64,000 nt of DNA, from the NCBI RefSeq assembly GCF_024498195.1, contig NZ_CP101824.1, positions 1,054,001 through 1,118,000 of the forward strand, given 5' to 3'. Origin of the DNA: Halovivax cerinus (GTDB lineage Archaea; Halobacteriota; Halobacteria; Halobacteriales; Natrialbaceae). Of this stretch, positions 29,172 to 32,880 are shown piece by piece; within the stretch, counting starts at the first letter, position 1, and each line of letters begins with the position of its first letter. The position numbers and the translations under genes were made by a program. The notes under the pieces were generated by a model. It was not told the origin of the DNA, made no database searches, and saw only the letters and a program-made list of their open reading frames with translations.

Positions 29172-29193
29172 TGACATACTCCCTGCCCGCCAG
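29172..29193 (-). mobile_element. Possible degenerate IS200/IS605-type right end
   Basis: tgacatactccctgcccgcc resembles, on the minus strand, the end seen at 56921-56954 (the ggcggggaggaggtcaa side) with a few changes, but the hairpin next to it is not preserved. No transposase gene is recognisable nearby. Weak evidence. Confidence 0.25.
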
Positions 29194-29374
29194 GAGCCGC
29201 CAACGTGGAGCACATCGCCGGGTTGGCCCTCCCGTTCGAGTAGCGCTGGATCGCGGTCGGTACCCGCGAAAACGGTACTATCGGCCCGTAGGCCCGTCTC
29301 GGTCCCGCGCTGGCGGTGTGTCTCACCGGTATGCGGTATCAGCGCCGGACATCGGATATTACAACCACCAGTAG

Positions 29375-29384
29375 CTATATATTA
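29375..29384 (+). promoter_or_regulatory. TATA box of the candidate RNA gene
   Basis: ctatatatta is one of the best TATA boxes in the window. Its centre is 27 bp before the first base of the long stem at 29406, the normal archaeal distance to a transcription start, and no ATG-led gene begins there. Confidence 0.55.
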
Positions 29385-29405
29385 TCTCCCGTCAATAGTC
29401 GGAAC

Positions 29406-29554
29406 GGAAGCCACGCGCTCCAGAGCACGCGCGGGGACATGCGCTTAGGAAATGTCCCGGGTGGAACCAGCACCCGAGACGTGGCTTCCCCCTCTAACGA
29501 GGGCCGTGAAAGAAGCCATGCTTACAAACACACTACCGAGACAAAAAGGTCTCG
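29406..29554 (+). ncRNA. Candidate structured non-coding RNA
   Basis: A perfect 10-bp stem (ggaagccacg 29406-29415 with cgtggcttcc 29480-29489) encloses at least two further perfect hairpins: gggacat/atgtccc (29434-29440/29452-29458) and gggtg/caccc (29459-29463/29471-29475) with a 7-nt loop. Two more hairpins follow: ccctc-taac-gaggg (29490-29503) and cgagac/gtctcg (29537-29554). A TATA box is correctly placed for a start at about 29406. It is not a tRNA, as the T-loop consensus is absent. It may be free-standing or the leader of the zinc-ribbon gene at 29660. Confidence 0.45.
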
Positions 29555-29659
29555 CCTACCTGTGGTACCGAGAGCACAAGCTATGCCCCGAATTCGTCTG
29601 GGAATCTAAACTGCCTGAGCGTCTGGTTCTCAGAGTCGGTCACCTCAAGGTGAACTGAG

Positions 29660-29887
29660 ATGGGTCGCTACGAGTTCGACGAGCCGGGGCCGGACGATCC
29701 GTGTCCGCGCTGCGGACAGGATCTGCAGAAAACCTACTGGGCGTACGTCCGGACGGCTCACGAGGGACCGCTCTCGTACCGGTACGAGGATACGGAGAAA
29801 CGACTGTGCGTGGACTGTATCGCGGCGATCGGGATGCTGGAACTGGCGATGGACGGTGCCGCTGGAGGTGGACAGGAGCCGGTGTAG
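29660..29887 (+). CDS. Small zinc-ribbon protein
   Basis: 75 aa with two CxxC pairs, PCPRCGQ (15-18) and LCVDCI (about 50-53), the layout of a zinc ribbon. The sequence between has KTYWAYVRTAHEGPLSYRYE. The ATG follows aaggtgaactgag, an AGGTGA ribosome site 6 nt away, so unlike most genes here it should have a leader. A shortened copy lies at 25769. Function unknown. Confidence 0.75.
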   Translation: MGRYEFDEPGPDDPCPRCGQDLQKTYWAYVRTAHEGPLSYRYEDTEKRLCVDCIAAIGMLELAMDGAAGGGQEPV

Positions 29888-30401
29888 GTCGGGGTGACAG
29901 TTGGGTTGGGGACCTATCTGGTACCGTCCTCGAGGATCGACGGGTGTGAACGCGACCGTTCGATTTGGGTTTCTCGTGATTGTGACGGTGTGTTTGCTCT
30001 TTTCCTCCCTCTCTGATGGCTGGTATTGGGATAGTCTGTTGGAGGGCAGCGAATTACTGTCGATTGAACACAGAATACTTCGCGTCGTGTGTCGATTCGG
30101 GAAACGGATTGTCTCGACGAACGACCTCAGGGACTCGTGACCGATCGGTCCTCCAGGCGTCTCGGCGTGCCCGCCCAACCACCGTTTCGCCTGCTTCAAC
30201 TGGAGATTTGCGGAGTGGGGCGGGAGCGAGGTAATTTTTTGGCTCTGTATCTTAGGGACACGCCGTGCGACGCTGTTACGGTTGCATTCCCGCTCTAGCG
30301 CACCTTTTCCCACGCCAAACCCCTCCGTTTCGACTGGAGTAGCCATAACCACTCCTCACGTCGTGGCCGGCGTCCCGTTTCTGACTCGAAACACGTTGCA
30401 G
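29888..30401. other. Region without a recognisable gene
   Basis: Several short frames exist; the best, from a GTG at about 29946, would encode one hydrophobic helix (FGFLVIVTVCLLFSSL) and then little else. I see no conserved motif and do not call it a gene. Confidence 0.4.
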
Positions 30402-31695: not shown

Positions 31696-32880
31696 ATGGG
31701 CCGGCGGAAGCGCCGGCGGCGCGCAGATCGGGAGCGCGCGGCCGAGCGCGACCAGGCCGACGGCGAAGACGAGCGCGCCGCAGCGTCGACCAGTGGGACC
31801 CCGCTGGGCGTGCCGGACGCGCCGATCCCCGATTCTCCGATTCCCGACGCGGGCGTTCCGGACGTGGGCGCTCCCGATATGGGGATGGGCGGGGCGGCGA
31901 CACCAGGCGCAGCGATGGGCCAGGAACACGGGCGTGGGGCGACCCCGTCGCTGTCGATGCGCGGCTACGGCCCCGAGGCCCAACAGCACATTCACCGTGC
32001 GACGACGGACGCCGGGACCGATCCGGACGCGGTTCCGGATGCCGTCCTGGACGTGCTCGCAACTGGCTCTGGGCAGTCGCTCGACGCCTCGACTCAGCGA
32101 GCGCTGGAAGAGCGGATGGACGCCGACTTCTCGGACGTGGAGATTCACACCGGCCCGGAAGCGGCGAAGGCCGCCGACGCGATCGATGCCCGGGCGTTCA
32201 CGTGCGGCACCGCGATCGTGTTCAACGACGGTGAGTACGATCCCGAGAGTGCGGAAGGACAGCACCTCTTGGCGCATGAACTCGCCCACGTCAAGCAGCA
32301 GACGGGCGGCGCGAACGGAGTGAGGGCCGCCGGATCAGCGAGCGGGAGCGAAGCGACACGCGAGCCGGGTGCGGCAATCTCGATGATGCCGCAGGTGGAT
32401 GCGGATCTGGAGATTGACCCTGATCCGCAACTGGAGCGGGAGGCCGATCAGATGGCCCAGCGAGTACTAAATAGCGAAACGTTGGGGCTGGAAAATATCC
32501 AGAATACATCGATTCACATTCAACGTTCAGAGAAACAGACTCAAACTGACGATGGATCTGATGACGCGCCTGTCGACGTCACGTTCTCGGATACACAACT
32601 TCAATCGAAATTCAAGCACGCACCCGTGTTTGGTGTTGAAGAGAACTGGAATATGGATAGCAAAGAACGGTTCAAAAGCGCCTTGAAAGAGCACATTTCA
32701 GATGCGGAGACAAGAATTATTGAAGGAAAATATCAAGATCAACCGGCGATACACTACTATAACAGCCAGACCAAAAACGTGGTAATCACTAAGCCAGATC
32801 GGAGGTTTTGGACGTGTTGGAAGCTTTCGCCTGCACAGGAGAACTATCTTCTTAATACAGGTAAGATTGGAGGAAGGTAA
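31696..32880 (+). CDS. Polymorphic toxin: DUF4157 carrier with C-terminal colicin D-like tRNase domain
   Basis: 394 aa in three parts. 1-95: basic start, then a disordered stretch with PIPDSPIPDAGVPDVGAPDM. 110-205: DUF4157 domain with DFSDVEIHTGPEAAKAADAI, GEYDPESAEG and the metal motif HELAH (194-198). 290-394: colicin D-like nuclease with KFKHAPVFG (K305, K307, H308), YQDQPAIHYYN, and WTCWKLSPAQ (T373, W375) ending GKIGG. Colicin D cuts tRNA-Arg anticodon loops; its catalytic K-x-K-H and S-x-W positions match here except Ser to Thr. DUF4157 proteins often carry toxins for contractile injection systems. Codon use turns A/T-rich after about 32450. The immunity gene follows 3 nt on. Confidence 0.85.
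   Translation: MGRRKRRRRADRERAAERDQADGEDERAAASTSGTPLGVPDAPIPDSPIPDAGVPDVGAPDMGMGGAATPGAAMGQEHGRGATPSLSMRGYGPEAQQHIHRATTDAGTDPDAVPDAVLDVLATGSGQSLDASTQRALEERMDADFSDVEIHTGPEAAKAADAIDARAFTCGTAIVFNDGEYDPESAEGQHLLAHELAHVKQQTGGANGVRAAGSASGSEATREPGAAISMMPQVDADLEIDPDPQLEREADQMAQRVLNSETLGLENIQNTSIHIQRSEKQTQTDDGSDDAPVDVTFSDTQLQSKFKHAPVFGVEENWNMDSKERFKSALKEHISDAETRIIEGKYQDQPAIHYYNSQTKNVVITKPDRRFWTCWKLSPAQENYLLNTGKIGGR

Follow-up and report, generated by a model that had tools for sequence, protein, structure and literature searches.

Purine-type translational riboswitches are built on a three-way junction that is closed by the helix P1. The haloarchaeal leader described here resembles them in its P1-closed junction, in the conservation of both inner-hairpin loops, and in a predicted expression platform that consists of a second partner for the P1 3' strand. 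It differs from them in that the AUG itself would be masked, with no Shine-Dalgarno sequence in the pairing, in the lack of an Rfam match, in a conserved motif inside the coding region, and in a copy number that reaches 32 per genome.

Among archaeal ribosomal-protein leaders, the Halobacteria S15 leader is likewise a structured haloarchaeal 5' leader upstream of a presumed target gene, and it controls different genes (PMC7247131, available text). The present family differs from it, as far as that text describes it, in occupying many loci per genome, in having no Rfam match, and in that no ribosomal-protein gene was recognised among the downstream ORFs inspected. The proteins encoded behind the leader are small and carry two Cys pairs, as do the C(P)XCG zinc-finger micro-proteins of Haloferax volcanii in PMC11241148, whose main text uses neither the word leader nor the word operon. 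The product of the second ORF at our locus (ORF2) has two such pairs of the CxxC type, invariant (C15, C18, C50, and C53) in 12 aligned sequences, and is predicted to bind zinc; it has no match above cut-off in Pfam or NCBIfam. The presumed translational fluoride riboswitch of Thermococcus kodakarensis was, according to the available text of PMC8241225, the only experimentally determined natural archaeal riboswitch as of 2021; likewise archaeal, it differs in its RNA, in its lineage, and in an export or detoxification role as opposed to a dispersed gene family. The available part of PMC4983044 gives 72% of Haloferax volcanii transcripts as leaderless, and control by structured leaders as not typical of haloarchaea. 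The presence of the leader in 285 of 391 haloarchaeal genomes runs against the picture in that part of the paper, for accessory genes without known common control. No description of the RNA was recognised in the open-licence literature searched, and an earlier mention elsewhere is possible.

Anatomy of the leader in the Halovivax cerinus window

The element was analysed within the window, which is the whole 64,000-nt stretch of Halovivax cerinus DNA. Folding of positions 29400-29560 gave a minimum free energy (MFE) of -62.8 kcal/mol, compared with -47.3 (sd 4.2) for dinucleotide shuffles, of which 0 of 200 were as good (z -3.72). The perfect 10-bp closing stem (P1) proposed in the initial annotation was confirmed, its two inner hairpins (P2 and P3) and two trailing hairpins (P4 and P5) are present as described, and the TATA box stands before the stem (Table 1). 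The same annotation placed the structure in a gap without genes, ahead of a zinc-ribbon gene. The zinc-ribbon gene is there, but the gap is not gene-free, since P5 lies inside an ORF. Rfam gave no match at gathering score in the whole window and none up to E 5 in 29350-29700, and there is no tRNA at the leader locus. The window structure is genuine and not an artefact; it is one copy of a structured-leader RNA family and not an isolated sRNA.

Table 1. Positions of the leader features and of the two ORFs in the window
Feature	Position	Strand	Sequence, pairing and basis
TATA box	29375..29384	+	CTATATATTA; seen in the sequence, about 30 bp upstream of the stem
P1 5' strand	29406..29415	+	GGAAGCCACG; 10 bp, perfect with 29480-29489; covariation
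P2 5' strand	29434..29440	+	Pairs with 29452-29458; fold and strand-swap test
P2 3' strand	29452..29458	+	ATGTCCC; conserved purine-rich loop end directly 5' of it
P3 hairpin	29459..29475	+	GGGTG-loop-CACCC; 29459-29463 with 29471-29475; fold and covariation
P1 3' strand	29480..29489	+	CGTGGCTTCC; common to both exclusive helices
P4, small variable hairpin between P1 and start codon	29490..29503	+	29490-29494 with 29499-29503
Start-codon region	29512..29520	+	GAAGCCATG; 9 bp complementary to the P1 3' strand (29480-29488)
ORF1, leader ORF, 46 codons	29518..29658	+	MLTNTLPRQKGLAYLW...; ATG at 29518
P5 hairpin within ORF1	29537..29554	+	29537-29542 with 29549-29554; holds the nucleotide motif at 29542-29554
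ORF2, second cistron, 75-aa zinc-ribbon protein	29660..29887	+	CPRC..CVDC; third-position excess in relatives

P4 is missing or very different in many distant members, and P5 forms in many members and not in all; as a universal hairpin P5 is unsupported, and the general feature is a nucleotide motif at +25 to +37 from the start codon. Upstream of the stem, 52 of 83 de-duplicated members have their best TATA-like hexamer beginning 30-32 nt ahead of P1, and because of this position we place the transcript start at P1 or a few nucleotides before it. Near-perfect palindromes of 14-24 bp, different in sequence at each locus, lie between the TATA box and P1 in L072, L077, L078, L093, L232, and L238 and look like operators of locus-specific repressors. 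Such an operator was clear (p <= 0.02, 60 shuffles each) in seven of the 83 members, in some distant loci only, and it is therefore kept outside the family definition.

Distribution of the leader family and covariation of its core

A BLAST search of the whole genome (3.9 Mb, one contig) with 29375-29660 as the query hit 36 places. A covariance model, R1, was built from 27 of the own-genome copies, with P1 and P3 as its only structure. With this model the genome yields 32 strong copies (E below 1e-9), besides a small number that are weak or degenerate; weak matches on the strand opposite strong copies are reflections of the symmetric stems. Twenty-nine of the 32 were retrieved, without those at 443352, 1446175, and 1616868. 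As regards a possible mobile element, the similarity between copies is confined to positions 1662-2273 of the query used for this comparison (window about 29361-29972), which correspond to the leader, ORF1, and ORF2, and a search with 3.8 kb around the element found no clean empty site in sister genomes. In two own-genome copies (L010 and L022) extra hairpins are inserted in P2, as expected if P2 is a peripheral stem.

With R1, the RNA was found in 115 of 391 genomes of the class (E <= 0.01). A second model, R2, which was built from 40 diverse members and extends into the coding region, raised this to 285 of the 391 and to 78 of 86 genera (E <= 0.001). As a control, R2 was run on a phylum-wide draw of 294 genomes: 35 match, all of them, among the matches listed, in the window's own order, and 0 matches fell in genomes of other orders. 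In the 24 genomes searched in depth (E <= 1e-4), copy numbers were 24 in G182, 14 in G337, and 11 in G194, with two or three in some others. Copies also occur on plasmids, including pHSAL2 of Halobacterium salinarum and plasmids of Haladaptatus halobius (two within 5.4 kb) and Halomontanus rarus. In the pHSAL2 copy the RNA ends at an ATG two codons upstream of the annotated start of HBSAL_RS12655. Halovivax asiaticus has the same ORF1/ORF2 type as the window copy, and the stretch of Haloferax lucentense that was examined has no copy.

Several further observations concern the spread of the element. G182 (L242-L261) repeats many times a unit of leader, 45-codon ORF, and Cys-containing protein of about 180 aa. 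Its sister genome G337 has several leader copies at contig ends, suggesting recent near-identical repeats. Within genus g19, four of the six genomes named (G213, G233, G326, and G328) are without a match, and other Natrialbaceae have many. A viral origin was considered and gained no match: the exact core pattern was not found in viral_contigs, and blastn of the window element gave no match in a phage collection, both being narrow tests that cover the Natrialbaceae form only.

The stems of the initial annotation are preserved by compensating changes in relatives. From alignment A1 we dropped L033 (degenerate) and L037 (a chance match), and from A2 also L010 and L022, the copies with P2 insertions. 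Alignment A4 comprises 40 sequences hand-picked for similar P2 length and for diversity from 88 sense-strand matches, and it was made with MAFFT, not fitted to the structure. For P1 and P3 together, 66 cells of A4 changed on both sides, compared with 27.4 after shuffling and at most 38 when slid, and 84.3% of cells were paired, compared with 32-48% when slid. P3 by itself had 98.8% of cells paired and four of its six pairs changed on both sides. On MAFFT alignments RNAalifold recovered P1, P3, and two pairs of P2 in one case and P3 only in another. Because the P2 region aligns poorly, P2 is recovered poorly in this way, and it was therefore tested by swapping its strands between loci (79 of the 83 de-duplicated members). 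The mean longest helix was 5.96 for the own strands and 4.78 for permuted strands (0 of 5000; z 11.7). P2 itself is variable, and its loop ends in a purine run (GAAA-like). The P3 loop has 6-7 nt; among distant members CUGGAA is its commonest sequence (12 of 72), and close variants are common.

Predicted pairing of the start codon and the motif inside the coding region

The bases before the ATG resemble the P1 5' strand (GAAGCCATG compared with GGAAGCCACG), a likeness that pointed to the P1 3' strand as a partner of each. We compared own with swapped partners for 36 segment pairs in the 83 members that remained of 166 entries after de-duplication. The strongest signal was between the two strands of P1 (z 17.8; 0 of 2000 permutations), followed by that between the P1 3' strand and the pre-AUG bases (z 14.8; 0 of 2000). 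The P1 5' strand and the pre-AUG bases gave no signal in the same members (z -0.4). The short stretch before the P1 3' strand gave a weaker signal with J12P2 (z 7.1), consistent with a longer P1 helix, and gave z 3.3 with J4 and z 2.2 with the pre-AUG bases. An earlier test of the P1 3' strand against the pre-AUG bases, with three antisense matches of A3 dropped and 86 of 88 used, gave 5.89 versus 4.56 bp for 18 distinct sequences of the strand (0 of 20000) and 6.33 versus 4.70 for 15 distant sequences (0 of 20000). Paired examples are GAAGACC-ATG with GGUCUUCC, GAACCC-ATG with GGGUUCCC, and AGAC-ATG with GUGUCUCC; in five of the 86 members the masking helix has only 3-4 bp.

Covariation of the P1 3' strand with both partners indicates that P1 and the masking of the start codon would be mutually exclusive. 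This covariation is strong but not final, as swap and permutation controls leave some shared ancestry in place. Constrained folding of 13 members compared the two states. The P1 state and the masked state had -61.6 and -59.9 kcal/mol in the window copy, -56.9 and -56.3 in L012, and -60.6 and -59.3 in L025. The masked state lies less than 2 kcal/mol above the MFE in these three copies and in L079, and it equals the MFE for L081. P1 is favoured in most of the 13, by 10-20 kcal/mol in L044, L070, and L096, which makes spontaneous switching look unlikely there without an effector or co-transcriptional kinetics.

In 161 of 167 rows, some loci being in both sets, the ATG at the end of the leader begins a reading frame that stays open for 24 codons or more; the other two frames do so in 46 and 40 of 166. 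Six rows are exceptions (L031, L011, L073, L270, and the single locus listed as both L097 and L252): their start is lost or is not ATG, they stop early, or they lack a convincing ATG. In L011 a stop stands at codon 9 although the RNA is kept, and L031 has lost the ATG; such rows would be expected if these copies are decaying, but equally if the RNA has a different role. Conservation continues beyond the start codon in the motif C-W-W-R-A-n3-U-n2-C-G, which covers codons 9-13. Among the 83 members, A at +29 is kept in 80, G at +37 in 74, C at +36 in 73, and U at +33 in 60; in the first set, 37 of 40 members have this U as the third base of codon 11. From family to family the residues encoded by codons 9-13 change, the nucleotides do not, and the conserved U falls at a wobble position; the constraint is therefore on the nucleotides.

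The remainder of ORF1 behaves differently. Over codons 14-50 of ten Halovivax-type copies (L055 and L093 being left out as non-homologous), differences by codon position numbered 456, 458, and 484, without bias, and ORF1 was rejected as a conserved peptide. ORF2 in ten related sequences had 931, 887, and 1408, an excess at third positions. Our conclusion is that what matters is the RNA together with the act of translation, and not the tail of ORF1. In Natrialbaceae, ORF1 mostly has 30-60 codons, and its stop often overlaps the start of the small zinc-ribbon ORF2 by 4 nt. By a simple rule, an ORF with Cys pairs stands there in 81 of 112 named loci.

A proposed translational switch and competing explanations

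A conserved structured leader lies directly upstream of an ORF, and comparison of the sequences gives two exclusive helices, one of them at the initiation site. We consider it probable that the element is a cis-acting, riboswitch-like translational switch in the leader of a two-gene mRNA, one of a haloarchaeal family. Among the options of the initial annotation, that of a leader or riboswitch is supported: almost every copy runs up to an ATG that begins an ORF, and the two exclusive helices both covary. In the proposed course of events, a transcript that starts at or just before P1 would fold its first ~85 nt into the three-way junction of P1, P2, and P3, closed by P1. While P1 is stable, the AUG would be free and ORF1 would be translated, P1 thus presumably being the on state, and ORF2, whose start touches or overlaps the ORF1 stop, would be translated by coupling. 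If P1 opens, its 3' strand would capture the AUG and translation would stop. A common ligand, protein, or ionic condition may act on the conserved P2 and P3 loops. A plainer alternative use of the same fold is a check on the integrity of the mRNA 5' end, as loss of the P1 5' strand would mask the AUG. The family appears to be a new one of structured leaders, riboswitch-like in layout, whose membership of the riboswitches is putative.

An RNA-binding protein could also decide between the two folds; the operon's own zinc-ribbon product might be that protein, in an autoregulatory circuit. We regard such a protein-binding leader as possible, though rather doubtful. Sequence conservation in the P3 loop (CUGGAA and variants) and at the GAAA-like end of the P2 loop speaks for it, as does the nature of the genes downstream. 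Under one uniform rule, 48 of 57 loci in Natrialbaceae and 71 of 102 distant ones have a zinc-finger-like ORF in first or second place, whereas 119 of 600 ORFs taken as controls from the same DNA are of this kind. Outside Natrialbaceae, what begins at the ATG may be a SWIM-type zinc finger, another Cys-rich protein, a protein without known family, or a short ORF that precedes a RAMP/Csm3-like gene. No ribosomal-protein gene was recognised by eye among the ORFs behind the leader, of which a sample was scanned against Pfam. Against autoregulation, the downstream products belong to several groups that are not related to each other (zinc ribbons, SWIM fingers, HalOD1-ribbon, RAMP-like), whereas the RNA core is one family. 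A single RNA core in front of so many unrelated proteins is better explained by a common effector (small molecule, ion, or protein) than by autoregulation, and a common trans-acting protein may be that effector. The zinc theme downstream is not absolute, and the putatively regulated genes are not uniform; since about three in ten distant loci fall outside this theme, zinc is not named as the ligand.

A static structured 5' UTR, which would protect the mRNA 5' end or aid 30S recruitment without switching, with the pre-AUG complementarity as a by-product (for example of a duplicated P1 5' strand), is improbable in our estimate. The strong preference for P1 in several members agrees with such a leader, and the fixed distance of the TATA box should make the 5' end and P1 coincide; yet it has no need of covariation between the pre-AUG bases and the P1 3' strand across loci with different P1 sequences. 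Attenuation by a leader peptide, in which translation of ORF1 and stalling at codons 9-13 would control ORF2, is very unlikely. ORF1 is indeed short, ORF2 abuts or overlaps its stop codon at most loci in Natrialbaceae, and codon 10 is usually Lys in that family, but the amino acids of codons 9-13 vary by family while the nucleotides are kept, codons 14-50 are without protein-level selection in the ten Halovivax-type copies, and many distant loci have no separate ORF1.

The initial annotation had also offered a free sRNA and a relic of a tnpB-type guide RNA. An sRNA that works in trans, with the start codons of sister copies as conceivable targets, would have its own promoter here, and pairing between copies is conceivable as most copies in the genome share the P1 3' strand sequence GTGGCTTCC. 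It is very unlikely, given that conservation runs through the ATG into codons 9-13, that the start-codon pairing covaries in cis, and that the swap test favours the own locus; an isolated sRNA was rejected as the main reading on the 32 copies, their end at an ATG, and the nucleotide conservation into the coding region. An additional short transcript may exist beside the leader mRNA. A guide-RNA relic of a tnpB (IS605-type) element is refuted for practical purposes: one of the 32 copies lies less than 1 kb from one of the five tnpB-type (PF07282) genes of the genome (308638-308838), but no copy lies within 10 kb of the other four, tnpB is absent from the neighbourhood of the remaining 31 copies, the RNA does not have the position of a guide RNA, which overlaps the 3' end of tnpB or follows it, an ATG and not a transposon end follows the RNA, and the IS-like end suggested at 29172 gained no support.

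Returning to the riboswitch-like switch, we propose only tentatively that it represents a new archaeal riboswitch-like class, in which one sensor across haloarchaea would bring dispersed, expanding small zinc-finger genes and mobile accessory genes (up to 32 loci per genome, including a RAMP/Cas7-like module) under one start-codon-masking signal. If true, there would be a single translational signal in a lineage considered to make little use of structured leaders. The analysis names a candidate regulon of otherwise uncharacterised small zinc-finger proteins and a new candidate for natural archaeal translational switching, and the pHSAL2 copy upstream of HBSAL_RS12655 opens the question to testing in Halobacterium salinarum, a laboratory organism.

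Two kinds of neighbouring genes were also observed. A RAMP/Cas7 (Csm3)-like gene, itself followed by one or two further genes, lies behind the leader in three genomes (L226, 576-1445, minus strand; L280, 1157-2098, minus strand; and L078), scoring E 4e-4 with PADLOC Csm3 and E 0.016, below cut-off, with Pfam RAMPs. Its homologs occur on 21 plasmid records, among them HBSAL_RS12640 of Halobacterium salinarum pHSAL2 (L290, 4998-5861), and these genes possibly belong to an undescribed haloarchaeal type III/IV-like module. In the window, 31696-32880 encodes a protein with a metalloprotease-like motif, HELAHVKQQ, which we take to be reminiscent of DUF4157 contractile-injection-system cargo; similar-looking R/K-rich N-termini are found in genes beside leader copies L021 and L026.
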